Shown here: piece by piece, positions 10,142 to 20,569 of the stretch
Numbering within the stretch: position 1 is the stretch's first letter
Layout of the letters: each line of letters starts with the position of its first letter
NCBI RefSeq assembly: GCF_000397205.1
Contig: NC_021237.1
Span: 2,915,001-2,979,000 of the forward strand
From: Pseudomonas protegens CHA0
GTDB taxonomy: Bacteria; Pseudomonadota; Gammaproteobacteria; Pseudomonadales; Pseudomonadaceae
DNA length: 64,000 nt
Reading direction: 5' to 3'
Translations under genes and position numbers: made by a program
Notes under the pieces: generated by a model
What the model was told of the DNA's origin: nothing
Seen by the model: only the letters and a program-made list of their open reading frames with translations
The model's database searches: none

Positions 10142-11155
10142 ATGAAAGGAATCCGCGCGCTGCTGGCCAGCAGCCTGTTGAGCCTTGCCGCCCTGAGTAC
10201 GGCGCAGCCGGTTGTGGCGGCGCCGCAACCGATTCATTTCGCCGACCTGAACTGGGAAAGCGGCAGCCTGATCACCGAGATCCTGCGGATCATGGTGGAG
10301 CAGGGCTATGGCTTGCCCACCGACACCTTGCCCGGCACCACCATCACCCTGGAAACGGCCCTGGCCAACAACGACATCCAGGTGATCGGCGAAGAGTGGG
10401 CGGGGCGCAGCCCGGTGTGGGTCAAGGCCGAGGCCGAAGGCAAGGTGCAGGCCCTGGGGGATACGGTCAAGGGCGCCACCGAAGGCTGGTGGGTGCCGGA
10501 ATACGTGATCAAGGGCGACCCGGCCAAGGGTATAAAGCCCCTGGCGCCGGAGCTGCGCAGCGTGACCGACCTGGCCCGCTACAAGGACGTGTTCAAGGAC
10601 CCGGAGAGCCCGGACAAGGGGCGTTTCCTCAACAGCCCGATCGGCTGGACCTCGGAGATCGTCAACCAGCAGAAGCTCAAGGCCTATGGCCTGCAGGACA
10701 GCTACGTGAATTTTCGCAGCGGTTCCGGAGCGGCCCTGGATGCGGAGATCAGCTCGGCGATCCGTCGCGGCAAGCCAATCCTGTTCTACTACTGGTCGCC
10801 CACGCCGCTGCTCGGGCGCTTCAAGCTGGTGCAACTGCAAGAACCGCCCTTTGACGCCGAAGCCTGGAAGACCCTGACCGACGCCGCCAACCCCAACCCC
10901 CGGCCAACCCGTTCCCTGGCCTCCAGGTTGTCGATCGGGGTGTCCACGCCATTCCAGAAGCAGTACCCGCAACTGGCGCAGTTCTTCGCCAAGGTCGACC
11001 TGCCCATCGAGCCCCTGAACCGCGCCCTGGCGCAGATGAGCGAGAACCACAGTGCCCCGCGGGACGCGGCCCGGGCCTTCCTCAAGCAGCACCCCGACGT
11101 CTGGCGCGCCTGGGTGCCCCGGGACGTGGCGGACAGGATCGCCGCCACCTTGTAG
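10142..11155 (+). CDS. Orphan glycine betaine/proline-type ABC substrate-binding protein (OpuAC family)
   Basis: A 337-residue periplasmic protein. Signal peptide at residues 1-27 (cut after VVA), then IHFADLNWESGSLITEILRIM, the OpuAC/ProX opening. Aromatic residues likely to cage a quaternary amine are visible (EEWAGRSPVW, TEGWWVPEY, FYYWSPTPLL). It would bind glycine betaine, carnitine, choline or a related compound. No permease or ATPase gene is adjacent, so it must serve a transporter encoded elsewhere. Its TAG stop is part of a half REP. Confidence 0.88.
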   Translation: MKGIRALLASSLLSLAALSTAQPVVAAPQPIHFADLNWESGSLITEILRIMVEQGYGLPTDTLPGTTITLETALANNDIQVIGEEWAGRSPVWVKAEAEGKVQALGDTVKGATEGWWVPEYVIKGDPAKGIKPLAPELRSVTDLARYKDVFKDPESPDKGRFLNSPIGWTSEIVNQQKLKAYGLQDSYVNFRSGSGAALDAEISSAIRRGKPILFYYWSPTPLLGRFKLVQLQEPPFDAEAWKTLTDAANPNPRPTRSLASRLSIGVSTPFQKQYPQLAQFFAKVDLPIEPLNRALAQMSENHSAPRDAARAFLKQHPDVWRAWVPRDVADRIAATL

Positions 11156-11215: not shown

Positions 11216-13351
11216 TCAGAAGCGGGTCTGCACCGCCACCTCGAAGGTTCGCGGCTGGCCCAGGTAGTACGCCGGGGACACATGGGCGAACTGGCCATAG
11301 ACCTCGTTGGTCAGGTTGCGCACCCGGCCGGTCACTGTGGTGTGGCTGTCGACCTTGTAGCGCAGGAAGCTGCCGTACAGGGTGTAGGCGGGCATCCGCA
11401 GGGTGTTGGCGTTGTCGGCGTATACCGAGGCCACGTAGCGCGCATCGACCCCGGTCTGCCAGTTGGGCGACAGGTCATAGGTCAGCCACAGGTTGGCCAG
11501 CCGGTCCGGTACGTTGGTCGGCGTGTTGCCCTTGCGTGAAACCACCGCGCCGCTGGCGATCTTCTCGTTGAACTCGCCGTACTCGGCATCCACCCAGGCG
11601 AAGTTGGCTTGCGCCAGTAGCTTGGGGGTGATGTGCAGGGAACTGGCCAGCTCGATGCCCCTGGAGGTCTGCTGGCCCACCGGGATGCTGTTGGCCGGGT
11701 CCAGGGGATCGGTGACGGCAAAGTCCTTGCGCTCGATGCGATAGGCGGCAACGGTCGCCGAACCCCGTCCTTGCAGGTAGTCGAACTTGCTGCCCACTTC
11801 CCATTGCTTGCCCGTGGACACCTCGAAGTTCTGAGTGCCACTGGGCTGCTCGGCGGCGGTGCTGTACTGCACGTAGACATTGGCGCTGGGCAGGAACTGC
11901 CAGGTCAGGCCCAGGCGCCCGGTGACCGGTTCCCAGCTGCGCTTGAGGTGGCGCGGGTTGCTGGCGGTGATCAGCCGGTGGTTGGTCACGTCCAGGTCGA
12001 TGGCGTCGTAGCGCAGGCCGCTGAGCAGTGACAGCTCGTCGCTCAGGGCCAGGCGGTTCTCGACGAACAGGGCGCGGGTGGTGACCTGGTTGGTCTTGTC
12101 CTTGGCCCAGCCCTGGCGGGTGCCCTTCAGGTCATAGAAGTACCCCGGCTGGAAGTTGCCGGGATCGACGCTGTTGCTGGCCGGCACGTTCCAGGGCGAG
12201 TTGGTGGTGCTGTTGACCTTGTACTCAAAACCCCCGGACCAGGTGGTGTCGAGGCCGAACAGCTGATCGTCGTGGCGCAGTTCGAACTGGTTGCCGTCCT
12301 GCTGGCCCTGGTGCCGTACCAGGTAGGCGGTCGAGCGGTTCACCCGGCTGTTGTCGGCGTTGTACTGGTAGGTCTCCAGGTTGCGATAGTCGCGCTGGCT
12401 GTCCAGGTGGTAGAGGGTGTTGCGCAGGCTGGTGCTGGGGTTGATCCGGTAGTCGATGATCGAGCGCAGCCACACCGTGCGTTGCTCATACAGGCCATCG
12501 GCGACGTTGTAGTTGTTGAAGCGGTTGTGCTTGTCGATCTTCAGCTCACCGGCCTTGGGATTGAGCACCGGGGTGCCCCAGTAGGGGCTGTCCTCGTGTT
12601 CATCCTGGTATTCCACCGCCAGGGTGTGGGACAGGTCCGGGGTCAGGTCGCTGAGCAGGGAGAAGGCCAGGCTCCAGGCATCCCTTTCCTGGCGGTCGAT
12701 GTAGCCGTTGCTGGTGTTGTGGCTGACGTCCAAGCGCGCGTAGTGCTGCACCTCGGCGCCGGCCGGGCTGAGGGCGTGGTTGACCCCGAAAGCGGTCTGG
12801 GTGGTGTCGTAGCTGCCGTAGCCGAGCAGGCCTTCGGCGGCCTGTTCGCGGCGGTCCGCGAGTTTGGTCACGTAGTTCAGCGAACCGCCCACGGAGCCGG
12901 CGCCATTGATCAGTGACGAGGGGCCGCCCACCAGTTCCACCCGGTCGTAGATCCAGGCGTCCACCGGCCGGGCCAGGCCGGTGGCGACGTTGATGCCGTT
13001 GAACATCTGGGTGATCTGGCTGCTGGTGAAGCCACGGTAGGAGACGAAGCCGCCGAACCCCGGCGGCGCACTGGCGTTGACCCCGGGCAGGGCGTTGGCC
13101 GCTTCCTGGAAGGTGCGGGCGCCGCTTCGCTCCAGGTCCTGGCGGCTGGCCACGGCCACCGAGGCCGGGGTTTCGCGCAGGCTCAGGCCCAGGCGCGAGG
13201 CCATGCCGCTGGACTGGTCCAGGTTCAGGCCCGGCTCGGCATCGGCCTCATCGGCGCCGATGGTGGTGGGGGCCAGTTCGAGGCTCGGCTGTCCCCAGGC
13301 ATTGATCGACAGGCAGCCCAGCAGGCTCGCCAGCAAAGGAAGGTGTTTCAT
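11216..13351 (-). CDS. TonB-dependent outer membrane receptor (siderophore or metal)
   Basis: A 711-residue TonB-dependent transporter. Signal peptide about 1-20 (cut near AWG-QPS), a TonB-box-like segment ELAPTTIGA, a plug domain (ETPASVAVASRQDLERSGARTF, FNGINVATG, RVELVGGPSSLINGAGSVGGSLNYV) and a 22-strand barrel ending in the outer-membrane signature TFEVAVQTRF. It lacks the N-terminal signalling extension of transducing receptors. It lies 87 bases downstream of a DUF2946 gene on the same strand, with a hairpin between them. That arrangement is known for copper-repressed TonB receptors, so a metal or metallophore substrate is likely. No Fur box is obvious upstream. Confidence 0.9.
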   Translation of the reverse strand: MKHLPLLASLLGCLSINAWGQPSLELAPTTIGADEADAEPGLNLDQSSGMASRLGLSLRETPASVAVASRQDLERSGARTFQEAANALPGVNASAPPGFGGFVSYRGFTSSQITQMFNGINVATGLARPVDAWIYDRVELVGGPSSLINGAGSVGGSLNYVTKLADRREQAAEGLLGYGSYDTTQTAFGVNHALSPAGAEVQHYARLDVSHNTSNGYIDRQERDAWSLAFSLLSDLTPDLSHTLAVEYQDEHEDSPYWGTPVLNPKAGELKIDKHNRFNNYNVADGLYEQRTVWLRSIIDYRINPSTSLRNTLYHLDSQRDYRNLETYQYNADNSRVNRSTAYLVRHQGQQDGNQFELRHDDQLFGLDTTWSGGFEYKVNSTTNSPWNVPASNSVDPGNFQPGYFYDLKGTRQGWAKDKTNQVTTRALFVENRLALSDELSLLSGLRYDAIDLDVTNHRLITASNPRHLKRSWEPVTGRLGLTWQFLPSANVYVQYSTAAEQPSGTQNFEVSTGKQWEVGSKFDYLQGRGSATVAAYRIERKDFAVTDPLDPANSIPVGQQTSRGIELASSLHITPKLLAQANFAWVDAEYGEFNEKIASGAVVSRKGNTPTNVPDRLANLWLTYDLSPNWQTGVDARYVASVYADNANTLRMPAYTLYGSFLRYKVDSHTTVTGRVRNLTNEVYGQFAHVSPAYYLGQPRTFEVAVQTRF

Positions 13352-13375
13352 CGGTGCATCCTGAATTCTTGGCTA

Positions 13376-13418
13376 GGAAAAGGCCCACGAACGCGCGCCG
13401 CGCGACAGCGCAGTGGGC
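13376..13418 (-). promoter_or_regulatory. Hairpin between DUF2946 ORF and TonB receptor (possible attenuator)
   Basis: On the minus strand, GCCCAC and GTGGGC (plus 13413-13418 and 13383-13388) pair around a GC-rich loop with internal GCGC pairing, and CTTTTCC follows directly. This looks like a weak intrinsic terminator about 21-40 bases after the DUF2946 stop and 30 bases before the receptor start. A ribosome stalled at the end of DUF2946 would stand next to this structure. Confidence 0.6.
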
Positions 13419-13438
13419 AGGTTGAGCACGAGCAGGAA

Positions 13439-13825
13439 TCAGGCGAGAGGCGGTGCCCGGGGATGGGCCGCGGGCCAGGTGGAGCGGGCGGGGAGGTCGG
13501 TCTTGGCCAGGGTGCGCGCAAGCGGGGCCTGGGGCTGCGGCAGCAGGGCCAGGGTCAGGCTGGAGTTCAGGGCCGGGCCCATGCCGCCGGTGGAGCACAG
13601 CGGGCAACCGAAGGCTTTGGATAGAGTGGGCAGGGAGCCCTGGTCGGCCGGTTTCTGCAGCGGCGCCTGGGTGGCAGGGTCGACGCTGCAGAACTGCCCG
13701 CCGATGCCGTTGAGCTGCATGCCGAGCATCTGCCCGTGGCCGATGCTGCAGGCGAACACGTTGAACAGGACGCAGCAATAGAGCATCCAGGCAACGAGCG
13801 AGCGATCGGAACGGGCAAATTTCAT
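13439..13825 (-). CDS. DUF2946 upstream ORF with CxxC and C-terminal RAPP motif (putative copper-sensing arrest peptide)
   Basis: A 128-residue protein with an N-terminal hydrophobic segment (LVAWMLYCCVLFNVFACS, residues 10-27), a His/Met patch (GHGQMLGMQL, 29-38), C46, a CPLC motif (C74/C77) and a Pro-rich tail ending RAPP-Leu-Ala (R123-P126) just before the stop. DUF2946 proteins upstream of TonB receptors are reported as copper-responsive regulatory ORFs, and RAPP/RAGP motifs stall ribosomes in other arrest peptides. I infer that copper binding to the nascent chain changes arrest and so expression of the receptor downstream. Start ATG 13825 gives the expected membrane helix; ATG 13843 is less likely. 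Confidence 0.85.
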   Translation of the reverse strand: MKFARSDRSLVAWMLYCCVLFNVFACSIGHGQMLGMQLNGIGGQFCSVDPATQAPLQKPADQGSLPTLSKAFGCPLCSTGGMGPALNSSLTLALLPQPQAPLARTLAKTDLPARSTWPAAHPRAPPLA

Positions 13826-13921
13826 GGGGCGGCACTTTATCATCGAAGGCGACGAACGTACTTACAAAAACGGTCAATCGAGTCCATTCTTCAGCGACAT
13901 TTTCTGCACGGACGTCTGAAC

Positions 13922-14359
13922 ATGAATCTTCTGCTCGCACAGGGGGTGGCTGGCAGCTTCCTGTTGATCAGTCTGATCCATCTGTACTGGGCTACGGGTG
14001 GCAAGCGTGGCAGTGATGCGGTGATTCCCGAGGTGCCGGGGCCGGGGCCCGGCATGACCCAGCCGGCGTTCCGTCCGCCGGCCCTGGCCACGATGCTGGT
14101 GGCAGTGGCTTTGTTGCTGGTGGCGATGCTGGTGTGCCTGAGGGTCGGGCTCTACCTGCCGACGGTGACCCACCCGTCTCTGCAGTGGGTGATCAGCGCC
14201 ATTGCCTTGCTGATGTTCGCCCGGGCCATCGGCGACTCCGAGCTGGTGGGTTTTTTCAAGGAAGTCCGGGATTCGAAATTCGCCCGCCTCGACACCCTGT
14301 TCTATTCCCCCCTGTGCGTGGTGCTGGGGACCGGGTTGCTGGTGCTGGCCTGGGCCTGA
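13922..14359 (+). CDS. DUF3995 membrane protein
   Basis: A 145-residue integral membrane protein with four hydrophobic segments (about 5-25, 55-75, 88-105, 125-145). The start MNLLLAQGVAGSFLLISLIHLYWATGG and the later FYSPLCVVLGTGL match the DUF3995 family as I know it; function unknown. ATG 13922 is preferred because it places the first helix at the N-terminus. It is divergent from the DUF2946/TonB-receptor pair across 96 bases, so the two promoters share that gap. Confidence 0.83.
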   Translation: MNLLLAQGVAGSFLLISLIHLYWATGGKRGSDAVIPEVPGPGPGMTQPAFRPPALATMLVAVALLLVAMLVCLRVGLYLPTVTHPSLQWVISAIALLMFARAIGDSELVGFFKEVRDSKFARLDTLFYSPLCVVLGTGLLVLAWA

Positions 14360-14496: not shown

Positions 14497-14865
14497 TCAG
14501 TTGCCGGTTTCGCTGCGTTTGCTGCTGATTTCCGCCGGCACATCGTCGCCGGCCATGCGCTTGCGAAACAGCGCGGCCCGCGCCAGCAGCAGGGTGGTCA
14601 CCGGTACGGTGATGGACATCAGCACCGGGATCAGCCAGGCGTGCAGCACCGGCCCGGACTTGAGCGCGGAAAAGTACAGGATCGACGCCAGGGCCACGGC
14701 CCAGGAGCCCATGGTGGAGGCCAGGGCCGGCGGGTGCATGCGCTGGAAGTAGCTCTTCATGCGCAGGATGCCCAGGGCCCCGATCAGGGCAAACACACTG
14801 CTGATCACCAGCAACAAGGCCACCAGCACTTCCACCCAGAGTGGCAATTGTTCCAGGCTGTTCAT
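14497..14865 (-). CDS. phaG: Monovalent cation/H+ antiporter subunit G
   Basis: A 122-residue MnhG/PhaG/ShaG subunit with three membrane segments in the first 95 residues and a charged cytoplasmic tail. Family motifs GALGILRMKSYFQRMHPPALAST are present. Last gene of the operon; its ATG overlaps the stop of phaF by four bases. In the assembled Mrp-type complex it is a small accessory subunit needed for K+ or Na+ efflux in exchange for protons. Confidence 0.92.
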   Translation of the reverse strand: MNSLEQLPLWVEVLVALLLVISSVFALIGALGILRMKSYFQRMHPPALASTMGSWAVALASILYFSALKSGPVLHAWLIPVLMSITVPVTTLLLARAALFRKRMAGDDVPAEISSKRSETGN

Positions 14866-15140
14866 TCGATCACCTCGCCACGCAGAAGGAATTTGGCCAG
14901 GGCGAAGGAGCCGACAAAGCCGAACAGGGCGATCAGCAGCGCCGCCTCGAAGTAGGTGTCACTGGCGTAGCGCACGCCCAGCACCAGCATCATCAGCATC
15001 GCCAGGATGTACAGGTAGTCCAGGGCCAGAACCCGGTCCTGGGCCGAGGGGCCCTTGAACAGGCGCACCAGGGTCAGGACCATGGCCAGGGAGAAAATGA
15101 ACAGACTCAGCAAGATCGCGTTGGTCAGCAGGACACTCAT
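14862..15140 (-). CDS. phaF: Monovalent cation/H+ antiporter subunit F
   Basis: A 92-residue, three-helix MrpF/PhaF subunit. Motifs GPSAQDRVLALDYL and the C-terminal LIALFGFVGSFALAKFLLRG are diagnostic. Start ATG 15140 overlaps the phaE stop by four bases (ATGA), which fixes it against a much longer upstream open frame that is a shadow of phaE. Confidence 0.92.
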   Translation of the reverse strand: MSVLLTNAILLSLFIFSLAMVLTLVRLFKGPSAQDRVLALDYLYILAMLMMLVLGVRYASDTYFEAALLIALFGFVGSFALAKFLLRGEVIE

Positions 15141-15625
15141 TCGAAAATCTCCATCAGCGGGCGCTCGTACGTGGCCTTGAAGTGCTGGATGAATTGCGCC
15201 TCGTCCTTCAGGTCGAAGACGTGCAGCAACAGCAGGCTGCGGTCCAGGGACAGCTCGGACCAGACCGTGCCCGGTACCACCGTGGTGATGGTAGACAGCG
15301 CCGCCAGGCCATTGGCGTCCCGCAGGTCCAGGGGGATCTTGACGAAGGCCGAGTGCACCGGGCGCCGGCCGTTGTTGAGCACGCCCCAGGCCACCAGCAG
15401 GTTGGACACCAGCACGTCGCGGCCCACCACCAGGAACAGGCGCAGGATGGTGCCCGGGCGGCGGATGCGGATCGGCAGGGGCCGCAGGGGCTGCATCAGC
15501 AGCGGTGCGAGAAAGCCCAGCAGGGCGCCCAGCAGCAGGTTGCCCGGGCTGAGGGACAGGTTCAGCACCAGCCAGAGCAGCCACAGTGCCAGGGACAGGA
15601 ATGGCGCGGGGAACAGGCGCTTCAT
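15137..15625 (-). CDS. phaE: Monovalent cation/H+ antiporter subunit E
   Basis: A 162-residue MrpE/PhaE subunit: two N-terminal hydrophobic segments (LSLALWLLWLVLNLSL, LLLGALLGFLAPLL), then a soluble domain with the family stretch SNLLVAWGVL and STITTVVPGTVWSEL. Overlaps phaD (stop 15622) and phaF starts by four bases each. The MrpE soluble part packs on the side of the antiporter complex in solved Mrp structures. Confidence 0.92.
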   Translation of the reverse strand: MKRLFPAPFLSLALWLLWLVLNLSLSPGNLLLGALLGFLAPLLMQPLRPLPIRIRRPGTILRLFLVVGRDVLVSNLLVAWGVLNNGRRPVHSAFVKIPLDLRDANGLAALSTITTVVPGTVWSELSLDRSLLLLHVFDLKDEAQFIQHFKATYERPLMEIFE

Positions 15626-17310
15626 GGGTGCACCTCCACTGCCGCTGCGGTCTTGGATTCAGGGCTGAGCACGGTGCGGGTGCCCAGCACCGCCATCACG
15701 TAATGCTCCGGGTGGTTGAGGCTGTCGGCGGTGGCCTGGGTGAAGCGCAGCAACGGCTCGGCCTTGAAGCTGAGCAGCACGCAGAGCCCCAGCAGCGCCA
15801 CGATCGGCAGGCACTCCAGGCGCCGCAGCACCGGCGAAGGGCGTTCCTCCGGGGTCCAGAAGCGCTGCACACCCAGGCGGGCAAAGGCAATCAGCGAGGC
15901 CAGGCCCGAGAGGATCAACAGCGCCAGGAAGCACCAGGCCGCCGGGGTGATCGGCGCGCCCTCGCTGGCCCCCAGGCCCTCGGGGTTGAGCAGGGCGGCA
16001 ATCAGGTTGAGCTTGCCGATGAAGCCCGATAGCGGCGGCATGCCGATGATCAGCAAGGCGCAGGCGATGAAGCTCAGGCCGAGGAAGGCCATGGTCCAGG
16101 GGATCACCTGGCCGACCACCACTTTCTGTTCATCGTCGAGGTTGCTGCCCCGTGGCGGGTGCAGCGACTCCATGGGCCGCGGCAGGATCTCGCCTTCATC
16201 CTCCAGGGGGATCTCATTGGCCGAGCGCGAACGCTCGATCAGTTCTGCCAGCAAAAACAGCGCGCACATCGCCAGGGTCGAGCTGAACAGGTAGAACAGC
16301 GCCGCGCCGGTAAGGGCCGGCTGAGCGAAGCCGATCACCGAGATCAGGATGCCGGCCGACACCAGGATGCTCAGGCTGGCCATGCGCTCCAGGCGCTGGG
16401 CCGGAAGAATCGCCAGGGCCGCGCAGAAGATCGTCGCCATGCCGCCGTACACCAGCCACTGGCTGCCGAAATAGGCCGAGGCCCCGGCTTGCCCGGAGAA
16501 CAGCAGGGTCCACAGGCGCAGTACGGTGTACACACCGACTTTGGTCATGATGGCGAACAGTGCCGCCACCGGCGCGCTGGCCGAGGAGTAGGCGGGCACC
16601 AGCCAGAAGTTCAGTGGCCACATCCCGGCCTTGGCCAGGAAGGCGATCGCCAGGATCGCCGTACCGGCGTGCAGCAGGCCGCGGTCGGCTTCCGGCACCA
16701 GGGGGATCTTCATCGCCAGGTCGGCCATGTTCAGGGTCCCGGTGACCCCGTAGATCATCGCCGTGCCGATCAGGAACAGCGACGAGGCCAGCAGGTTGAT
16801 GGTGATGTAGTGCAGCCCCGAAGACACCCGCGCGCGCCCCGAGCCGTGCAGCATCAGGCCGTAGGACGCCGCCAGCAGCACCTCGAAGAACACGAACAGG
16901 TTGAACAGGTCGGCGGTCAGGAAGGCCCCGTAGAGGCCCATCAGCTGGATCTGGAACAGGGCATGGAAACTGGCCCCGGCGCCGTCCCAGCGGGCCATGG
17001 CGAACAGCAGCGCGCTGACCCCGATGATACCGGTGAGCACCAGCATCAGCGCCGACAGGCGATCGACCACCAGCACGATGCCGAACGGCACCTGCCAGTT
17101 GCTGGGCAGGTACACGCCGAAGGAGCCGGTGGCGCCCTGGACCTGGGTCCAGTACAGCAGGTAGCCCGCCAGGCACAGGCCCAGCAGGGTGGAGAGCAGG
17201 TTGATCCGGGCTTTCAGCGGGCGATGCTTTTCCCCCAGCAGCAACATGATGCCCGCGGTCAGCAGCGGCAGGAGGATGGGGGCGACGATCAGGTGCGACA
17301 ACGGATTCAT
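15622..17310 (-). CDS. phaD: Monovalent cation/H+ antiporter subunit D
   Basis: A 562-residue, 14-helix homologue of complex I antiporter subunits (NuoM/N). Conserved proton-path residues can be recognised: Glu in FFEVLLAASYGLML and Lys in FLAKAGMWPLNFWLVPAYSSA. It carries an acidic loop (NEIPLEDEGEILP) and a hydrophilic segment near residues 395-425, longer than in typical MrpD. The start ATG 17310 overlaps the phaC stop by four bases; an upstream extension is a shadow of phaC. Confidence 0.93.
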   Translation of the reverse strand: MNPLSHLIVAPILLPLLTAGIMLLLGEKHRPLKARINLLSTLLGLCLAGYLLYWTQVQGATGSFGVYLPSNWQVPFGIVLVVDRLSALMLVLTGIIGVSALLFAMARWDGAGASFHALFQIQLMGLYGAFLTADLFNLFVFFEVLLAASYGLMLHGSGRARVSSGLHYITINLLASSLFLIGTAMIYGVTGTLNMADLAMKIPLVPEADRGLLHAGTAILAIAFLAKAGMWPLNFWLVPAYSSASAPVAALFAIMTKVGVYTVLRLWTLLFSGQAGASAYFGSQWLVYGGMATIFCAALAILPAQRLERMASLSILVSAGILISVIGFAQPALTGAALFYLFSSTLAMCALFLLAELIERSRSANEIPLEDEGEILPRPMESLHPPRGSNLDDEQKVVVGQVIPWTMAFLGLSFIACALLIIGMPPLSGFIGKLNLIAALLNPEGLGASEGAPITPAAWCFLALLILSGLASLIAFARLGVQRFWTPEERPSPVLRRLECLPIVALLGLCVLLSFKAEPLLRFTQATADSLNHPEHYVMAVLGTRTVLSPESKTAAAVEVHP

Positions 17311-17650
17311 TCCTTGGGCTCCCGGCCATCGACGTGGTCGGTGCCGGTCAGGCCCCGGGAAGCCAGGAGCACCACCAGAAACAGCGCGGTCATGGCGAAG
17401 CTGATGACGATGGCCGTGAGCACCAGCGCCTGGGGCAGCGGGTCGGTGTAGTGCAGCAGGTCCTGGGGCACGCCCTCCTTGACGATCGGCTCCTTGCCGA
17501 TGAACAGGCTGCCCATGCTGAAGATGAACAGGTTGACCGCGTAGGACAGCAGGCACAGGCCCATCACCACCTGGAAGGTCCGCGGGCGCAGCACCAGCCA
17601 GACTCCGGAAGCGGCGAGGACCCCAATGGCGATTGCGATGACTTCTTCCA

Positions 17651-17651
<1 letters not shown>
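17307..17651 (-). CDS. phaC: Monovalent cation/H+ antiporter subunit C
   Basis: A 114-residue, three-helix NuoK homologue: GVWLVLRPRTFQVVMGLCLLSYAVNLFIF and DPLPQALVLTAIVISFAMTAL are the MrpC/PhaC signatures. The ATG overlaps the phaAB stop by one base. It lies between the two large antiporter-like subunits, as in all Mrp operons. Confidence 0.92.

Positions 17652-20569
<2,918 letters not shown>

Follow-up and report, generated by a model that had tools for sequence, protein, structure and literature searches.

A candidate CruR-type upstream open reading frame before a CrtA-like receptor gene in Pseudomonas protegens CHA0, and the predicted masking of the receptor Shine-Dalgarno sequence

The window (the whole stretch of 64,000 nucleotides of Pseudomonas protegens CHA0 analysed here) carries on its minus strand a short upstream open reading frame (uORF), followed after 87 nt by the gene of a TonB-dependent receptor; the coordinates are collected in Table 1. 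The uORF product matches PF11162 (DUF2946) in Pfam with 62.8 bits (E 6.5e-17, cut-off 23.7), and an alternative in-frame ATG at 13843 would lengthen it to 134 aa. Its translation contains a hydrophobic stretch near the N terminus (residues ~11-27, by eye), the CxxC motif C74-P-L-C77 and, at the C terminus, R123-A-P-P126 followed by Leu-Ala-stop, i.e., by two residues, with a CxxC-RAPP spacing of 45 residues (C77 to R123). A PDB search with the uORF gave no match at E up to 1. Upstream of the uORF a DUF3995 gene (13922-14359, plus strand) diverges, and downstream of the receptor a betaine-type binding-protein gene (10142-11155, plus strand) converges, so that the unit consists of the uORF and the receptor alone. 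Farther upstream, a series of minus-strand ORFs (14497-20569), the last of them an Na+/H+ antiporter subunit G gene, has the look of a multi-subunit antiporter operon. A previous sequence-only reading had described a 128-residue DUF2946 ORF with C74-x2-C77 and a terminal RAPP-Leu-Ala, 87 bases ahead of a TonB receptor, and each of these elements was recovered by the Pfam match, by counting on the translation and by the Plug and barrel domains of the receptor ORF.

Table 1. Features of the uORF-receptor unit (positions are those of the window)
Feature	Position	Strand	Basis and remarks
cruR-type uORF, DUF2946	13439..13825	-	128 aa, start ATG 13825; ORF list and Pfam
C74-P-L-C77 codons, putative copper ligand	13595..13606	-	Translation; spacing kept in 77/77 RAPP-bearing window-type loci
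C-over-G bubble peak, possible Rho loading region	13418..13555	-	C 53-55%, G 22-24%, 78-nt windows
R123-A-P-P126 codons, predicted arrest core	13448..13459	-	77/78 orthologues and B. pertussis CruR toeprint (PMC12992588)
Anti-SD zone CTC GCC TGA TTCCT, +12 to +25 from Arg codon	13434..13447	-	Own-versus-swapped complementarity
Central intergenic RNA hairpin	13383..13418	-	GCCCAC/GTGGGC at base; compensatory changes in two sub-lineages
Receptor Shine-Dalgarno (SD) TTCAGGAT	13358..13365	-	Best-conserved intergenic stretch; predicted paired with stop zone
TonB-dependent receptor, CrtA-like sister subfamily	11216..13351	-	711 aa; Plug and barrel domains

Among 298 genomes of the genus to which the window belongs, 135 contain a match to the receptor at E <= 1e-150, yielding 79 loci of the window type (77-100% identity) and 62 canonical loci (52-61%); at the same threshold, a family sample of 298 genomes showed the window type in none of its 18 other genera. 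The two receptor types share a genome in 6 of the 298 genomes, compared to about 16 expected if they were independent (kinship ignored), as if one replaces the other. The window receptor aligns over its full length with PDB chain 9rvq (651.6 bits), and its length lies inside the CrtA range of 707-911 aa. The PDB listing labels 9rvq merely as a TonB-dependent receptor; we have taken it as CrtA, the present name of the Bordetella pertussis copper-chelate importer, because its residues 130, 265, 337, 356, 358, and 395 are Y, W, E, Q, H, and R (PMC12914433). With CrtA, BfrG and PA0434, for the last of which regulation by copper availability has been described (PMC10422930), it shares full-length homology and the positions corresponding to W265, E337, and H358 (PMC12914433, PMC10422930). 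These three of the six CrtA ligand-site residues are present as W258, E326, and H347 and are kept in 79/79 window-type and 62/62 canonical receptors, while the window-type receptors differ from CrtA at two further positions: that of Q356 is V in 79/79 (V345 in the window) and Q in 62/62 canonical receptors, and that of Y130 is T, G, or S in 78/79, with one gap (T124 in the window), and Y in 59/62 canonical receptors. The R395 position is variable in both types alike. A PepSY_TM gene, reported next to crtA in over 75% of loci (PMC12914433), directly follows the receptor in 27/62 canonical loci and in 0 of the 74 window-type loci that offered 600 nt or more of downstream sequence (five others were too short). 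On the altered ligand-site positions and on the finding of no adjoining PepSY gene, the window receptor is, by sequence, a member of a CrtA-like sister subfamily, which may bind another ligand than CrtA does; its cargo is likely copper, presumably as a copper chelate.

The arrangement resembles that of a published system. Roy et al. (2022; PMC9426467) gave the name CruR to BP2923, a DUF2946 uORF in B. pertussis. According to the model proposed there, without copper the ribosome arrests at RAPP and Rho is excluded, while with copper, sensed via CxxC, the arrest is relieved and Rho terminates transcription before the TonB receptor gene. Arrest of CruR was observed in vitro, with residues 3 and 4 of RAPP in the P and A sites (Fujiwara et al., 2025; PMC12992588). 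Five sequence properties of CruR were found in the window uORF, namely DUF2946, a CxxC, a RAPP near the C terminus, a spacing of 45 residues, as in B. pertussis (PMC9426467), and a place as first gene before a CrtA-type receptor; a C-rich 3' half is shared as well. The two loci differ in that the intergenic region is 87 nt in the window and 162 nt in B. pertussis, in that the window locus is without a downstream PepSY gene, and in that, by prediction, the window receptor SD is masked through pairing with the RNA in front of the stalled ribosome. The core idea is therefore already known, since the uORF passes the CruR sequence tests down to the CxxC-RAPP spacing. The proposal of the sequence-only reading, a copper-sensing arrest peptide that controls a TonB receptor, agrees with the published CruR and with these tests, and, CruR being established (PMC9426467, PMC12992588), it describes a known system; its attenuator part fared differently.

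That part relied on a GCCCAC/GTGGGC hairpin and a U-tract between the two genes. The elements are present in the window (GCCCAC at 13418-13413, GTGGGC at 13388-13383, then CTTTTCC, minus strand), and the intergenic length is well kept (86-96 nt in 74/78 window-type loci). On the other hand, the third pair of the stem, counted from outside, forms in 8 of 73 distinct orthologous sequences, the six-pair stem gave no covariation above shuffles, and a run of four Ts follows the hairpin in 26 of 74 relatives, being absent in 48. No intrinsic terminator was found in 13200-14100 (0.8 expected in shuffles), and an Rfam search returned nothing up to an E of 1. An intrinsic attenuator was thus rejected, as no terminator was found and neither stem nor T-run is conserved; another and larger fold of this region, in which the receptor SD takes part, is supported instead. 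The more general expectation that the peptide would modulate either read-through or translation may hold on both counts, via Rho and via SD masking, as set out below.

The association of uORF and receptor, claimed previously from the single locus, goes beyond chance, for a DUF2946 ORF lies directly upstream in 78/79 window-type and 57/62 canonical loci, and three of the six misses fall at contig ends. The comparison of RAPP among related DUF2946 ORFs, which had been suggested as a check, found the motif in 77/78 window-type CruRs, the exception (L018) being frameshifted. In all 77 the CxxC stands 44-46 residues before RAPP, and in 76 of them two or three residues follow it. Conservation of a different kind marks the N-terminal half, where a block C26-SIGHGQM...FC46 (codons 13688-13750, minus strand) follows the hydrophobic segment. 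HGQ is kept in 77/77 window-type and 57/57 canonical CruRs, and C-x3-HGQ in 76/77 and 56/57, respectively, which suggests a further role of this half; the CruR model as published assigns it no function, and metal binding or a task in the exported protein may be considered. The uORF could also encode a small copper-binding protein of the ordinary exported kind, sharing a transcript with the receptor and free of any regulatory arrest, for which the conserved HGQ/Cys block speaks. We regard this as highly improbable, given the RAPP at a fixed distance from CxxC and from the C terminus, the avoidance of RAPP in proteomes otherwise (PMC12992588), and the coupling to the receptor SD described next.

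The last codon and stop of cruR belong to the anti-SD zone of Table 1, and this codon hardly varies among the loci. The gene ends in GCC-TGA in 72/77 window-type loci, and its terminal Ala codon is GCC in 72 of 73 cases, compared to 55% GCC within cruR. On a tree of 75 loci this codon underwent one synonymous change, versus 7, 10, 12, and 16 at four near-invariant Ala codons; the terminal Ala could instead be a degradation signal. Downstream, the receptor SD has six of its eight positions invariant and the other two at 90% or more (74 loci). Folding predicted pairing of the SD with the stop zone at a probability above 0.5 in 71/74 loci, versus 9/74 with dinucleotide-shuffled intergenic RNA, and at 0.97 in the window, where the CCUGA:UCAGG helix as such reaches a probability of 0.01 and the SD is predicted to pair elsewhere in the stop zone. 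RNAalifold applied to all 74 intergenic sequences together returned zero pairs. A common fold, comprising the closing helix CCUGA:UCAGG and a hairpin with compensatory changes, came from splitting the loci by tail length, a split chosen after looking, with ribosum-type scoring; with default scoring and the same split, the closing helix was recovered in both sub-lineages and the hairpin hardly. The five core pairs of the helix form in 189/190 and 98.3% of cells in the two sub-lineages, and the covariation score of the fold exceeds all 500 shuffles in each. Two further measures were not above shuffles: the number of pairs with both partners altered, which 27/500 and 188/500 shuffles equalled or surpassed, and the number of pair types in one sub-lineage (308/500). 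The pairs of the core 5-bp SD helix hardly vary among orthologues, so that this helix taken alone yields no covariation.

Anchoring of the pairing on the stop codon, our first idea, was abandoned, since the canonical loci showed no clear enrichment (0.53 versus 0.48 shuffled), and the position of the arrested ribosome was adopted as the anchor instead. With P125 (codon 13453-13451) predicted in the P site and P126 in the A site, the likeliest SD partners, averaged over loci, are found in both clades some +16 to +22 nt past the Arg codon, which equals +10 to +16 from the P-site codon, and a folding-free scan placed its best window at +15 to +19 in 54/74 window-type and 17/55 canonical loci. In a swap test, the +12 to +25 zone of each locus was scored for computed pairing with its own SD and with the SDs of dissimilar loci. 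The 194 loci comprised 129 of the genus sample and 65 of a further 137 tried (31 without receptor, 24 duplicates, 11 without a CruR ORF, and 6 with an out-of-range gap were dropped). The own SD paired at -9.41 kcal/mol and swapped SDs at -5.73 kcal/mol, the own being stronger in 180/194 loci and, when the types were run apart, in 77/91 window-type and 87/103 canonical loci; at five control zones the advantage of the own SD was at most 0.9. Taking one locus per SD class gave 44/53 (p = 1e-7), with the classes still related by descent, so that the p-values are overstated.

The own-minus-swapped minimum along the leader falls at +15 in window-type and +15 in canonical loci, at +12 in 11 other DUF2946 loci of the family (own better in 7/11), and, with a weaker signal, at +18 in 31 loci of other families (21/31); these broader sets derive from 51 loci submitted, 42 of them usable, with start codons assigned automatically. 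Loci with tails of 2-3 residues (n=116) and 4-7 residues (n=34) after the arrest core have a common register of +15 from the Arg codon, while anchored on the stop their registers diverge (-6 versus -18). In tails of 10-11 residues (n=42) the best pairing is at -3, which falls within the codons of the arrest core, and +18 ranks second. Judged by sequence, the pairing register follows the RA[P/S]P codons when the tail has 2-7 residues and is mixed when it has 10-11. Family, motifs, spacing, and conservation, together with the complementarity to the SD and its register, were established here by such sequence comparison.

The cost of opening the SD was then computed with a footprint that covers everything up to +17 from the P-site codon. 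For the 74 window-type loci it falls from 4.86 to 1.78 kcal/mol on arrest, compared to 3.12 to 2.55 in shuffles, a mean drop of 3.08 versus 0.57 kcal/mol that exceeds the shuffled one in 68/74 loci. The corresponding values are 5.22 to 1.66 kcal/mol for 55 canonical loci (shuffled, 3.94 to 2.34) and a mean of 4.68 to 1.65 for 16 held-out loci (shuffled, 2.72 to 2.47), four of which change little and which are 16 of 17, one having been dropped for its gap. In the window, the cost falls from 7.55 to 4.44 with the ribosome edge at +15 and to 2.8 at +18. The mean unpaired probability of the SD under a ribosome mask is 0.24 in free RNA, 0.26 at +15, and 0.37-0.39 at +18 to +21; opening energies were used next because this measure was nearly flat at +15, and both measures were kept. 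By prediction, by shuffles, and by the swap control, the SD would thus pair with sequence that the arrested ribosome covers, as in a SecM-type arrangement.

Two published systems invite comparison. In SecM-secA and uDF-secDF2 the SD of the following gene is hidden in a stem, which the stalled ribosome breaks up (PMC10987492); in the window the signal would be copper at CxxC and not export status, and the Rho arm would be additional. CutF-CutO of Rhodobacter capsulatus shares with the window DUF2946, copper, and a stem-loop over the next SD, and it differs in the opposite copper sign, in its dependence on export, and in its C-terminal motif (PMC9973294). By analogy, the SD-unmasking logic proposed here would be that of SecM-secA and, with the copper sign opposite, that of CutF (PMC10987492, PMC9973294). 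Should the window system work in the CutF manner, copper bound outside the cytoplasm would slow export, strengthen the stall, and open the stem-loop, so that the receptor would rise with copper. This gains some credit from the DUF2946 domain and the SD-shielding stem-loop of CutF, from a 45-residue distance from its copper motif, which is mentioned in that work (PMC9973294), and from the well-kept C-x3-HGQ block; yet the C-terminal core of the window uORF is RAPP, as in CruR, its cysteines are spaced as CxxC versus CxxxC in CutF, and CrtA-type receptors are copper-repressed in B. pertussis (PMC9426467) and, in Pseudomonas aeruginosa, produced at low copper (PMC12914433). A CutF-like mode consequently seems to us quite improbable here.

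The reading that we prefer, and consider probable, is that of a CruR-type uORF whose arrest at low copper both blocks Rho and opens the receptor SD, and whose release by copper closes both. We infer arrest and copper response of the window uORF, SD unmasking, and receptor cargo as follows: (i) at little copper, by extension from B. pertussis CruR, the ribosome would arrest once RAP has reached the P site, the A site being occupied by the final Pro codon; (ii) the arrested ribosome, again as in B. pertussis, would bar Rho from the C-rich 3' half of cruR, and transcription would reach the receptor gene; (iii) the front edge of the ribosome would cover the last codon and the stop region (GCC-TGA-TTCCT), freeing TTCAGGAT for translation of the receptor, while without arrest GCC-TGA-TTCCT would pair with TTCAGGAT across the folded 87-nt intergenic RNA; (iv) copper bound by the emerging CxxC would release the arrest; and (v) once the ribosome departs, the SD would close and Rho would terminate, turning the presumed copper-chelate receptor off when copper is ample. 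Judging from the length of the ribosome tunnel, the CxxC would probably lie just outside at arrest, since it stands about 45 residues from RAPP. The SD-unmasking arm is new here and derives from prediction and covariation.

The published mechanism might suffice by itself, with arrest acting solely through Rho exclusion and the SD complementarity incidental or otherwise used. In B. pertussis, bicyclomycin abolishes the copper control and a Rho terminator was mapped (PMC9426467), and the 3' half of the window cruR is C-rich in turn. This C-richness we read as compatible with a Rho arm, since the receptor gene reaches similar values and the C-over-G bubble exceeds the gene's own maximum in 30/74 loci only. 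Against a purely Rho-based control stand the SD complementarity, which is tied to the position of the arrested ribosome in several sets of loci, and the near-frozen terminal GCC codon, so that we hold it to be unlikely. The terms Shine-Dalgarno and ribosome-binding site are absent from the main text of Roy et al. (PMC9426467), and the three papers found to contain both CruR and Shine-Dalgarno are the CutF work, a Sec/YidC survey, and one unrelated paper. Explanations of CruR have so far invoked Rho exclusion; an additional arm at the level of translation, positioned by the arrested ribosome, would mean that copper acts on transcription as well as on translation, and it would link CruR with SecM and CutF.

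The canonical loci extend the question to the arrest core itself. Among their CruRs, RASP is found in 47/57 and RAPP in 10/57, and 19/57 are without any CxxC; these CxxC-less CruRs (L128, L130, L132, and others) retain RASP. In a further set of named loci (the best 80 of 430 relatives) RASP was counted 53 times and RAPP 15 times, 12 having a missing end or an unassignable ORF, a set biased because the first sequence of the search was of the RASP type. The Arg of the core is irreplaceable in related arrest peptides, and a P-to-S change at the third position of RAPP removed efficient arrest in ApcA, ApdA, and ApdP (PMC12992588); for SecM, RGSP figures in a list of demonstrated cores, and RASP is found among SecM relatives (PMC10987492). 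That paper was the only source found that combines RASP with the term arrest peptide, and RASP is absent from the main text of two CruR papers (PMC9426467, PMC12992588). From the shared register it would follow that RASP, which most CruRs ahead of canonical crtA in Pseudomonas carry, works as a natural arrest core. More generally, we give an even chance to the view that the CruR/DUF2946 family is a two-level switch in which the anti-SD is placed by the arrest position and not by the stop codon, in which RASP arrests, and in which CxxC-less CruRs sense otherwise. If this were true, RASP would work despite the loss of efficient arrest on P-to-S exchange in ApcA, ApdA, and ApdP, and CxxC-less CruRs would answer to something other than copper at CxxC. 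A sequence rule, with an anti-SD at about +12 to +25 from RA[P/S]P, would make working arrest peptides recognisable from DNA alone, and the unexplained RASP cores would become directly testable.

In P. putida-group loci with 11-residue tails (L211-L228, L234, L244, L265), the RAPP loci read T-P-R-A-P-P (9/9) and the RASP loci N-P-R-A-S-P, with one H-P. The residue two before Arg hence seems coupled to the choice of P or S in these loci; the coupling is not strict, since two long-tailed RAPP loci of the genus sample have N-P. The genome of the window itself contains four DUF2946 ORFs above the cut-off, including the uORF described here. The second has RAPP and precedes what we read as a canonical crtA and a PepSY-like gene. 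The third, also with RAPP, is followed by an ORF which we take to be oprC, and the fourth, with GAPP, by one which we take to encode a PCuAC-type chaperone. The GAPP-ending ORF (L012:5168-5566, minus strand) precedes, in names given by eye, a PCuAC-like ORF and a unit of a second DUF2946 ORF and an oprC-like gene.
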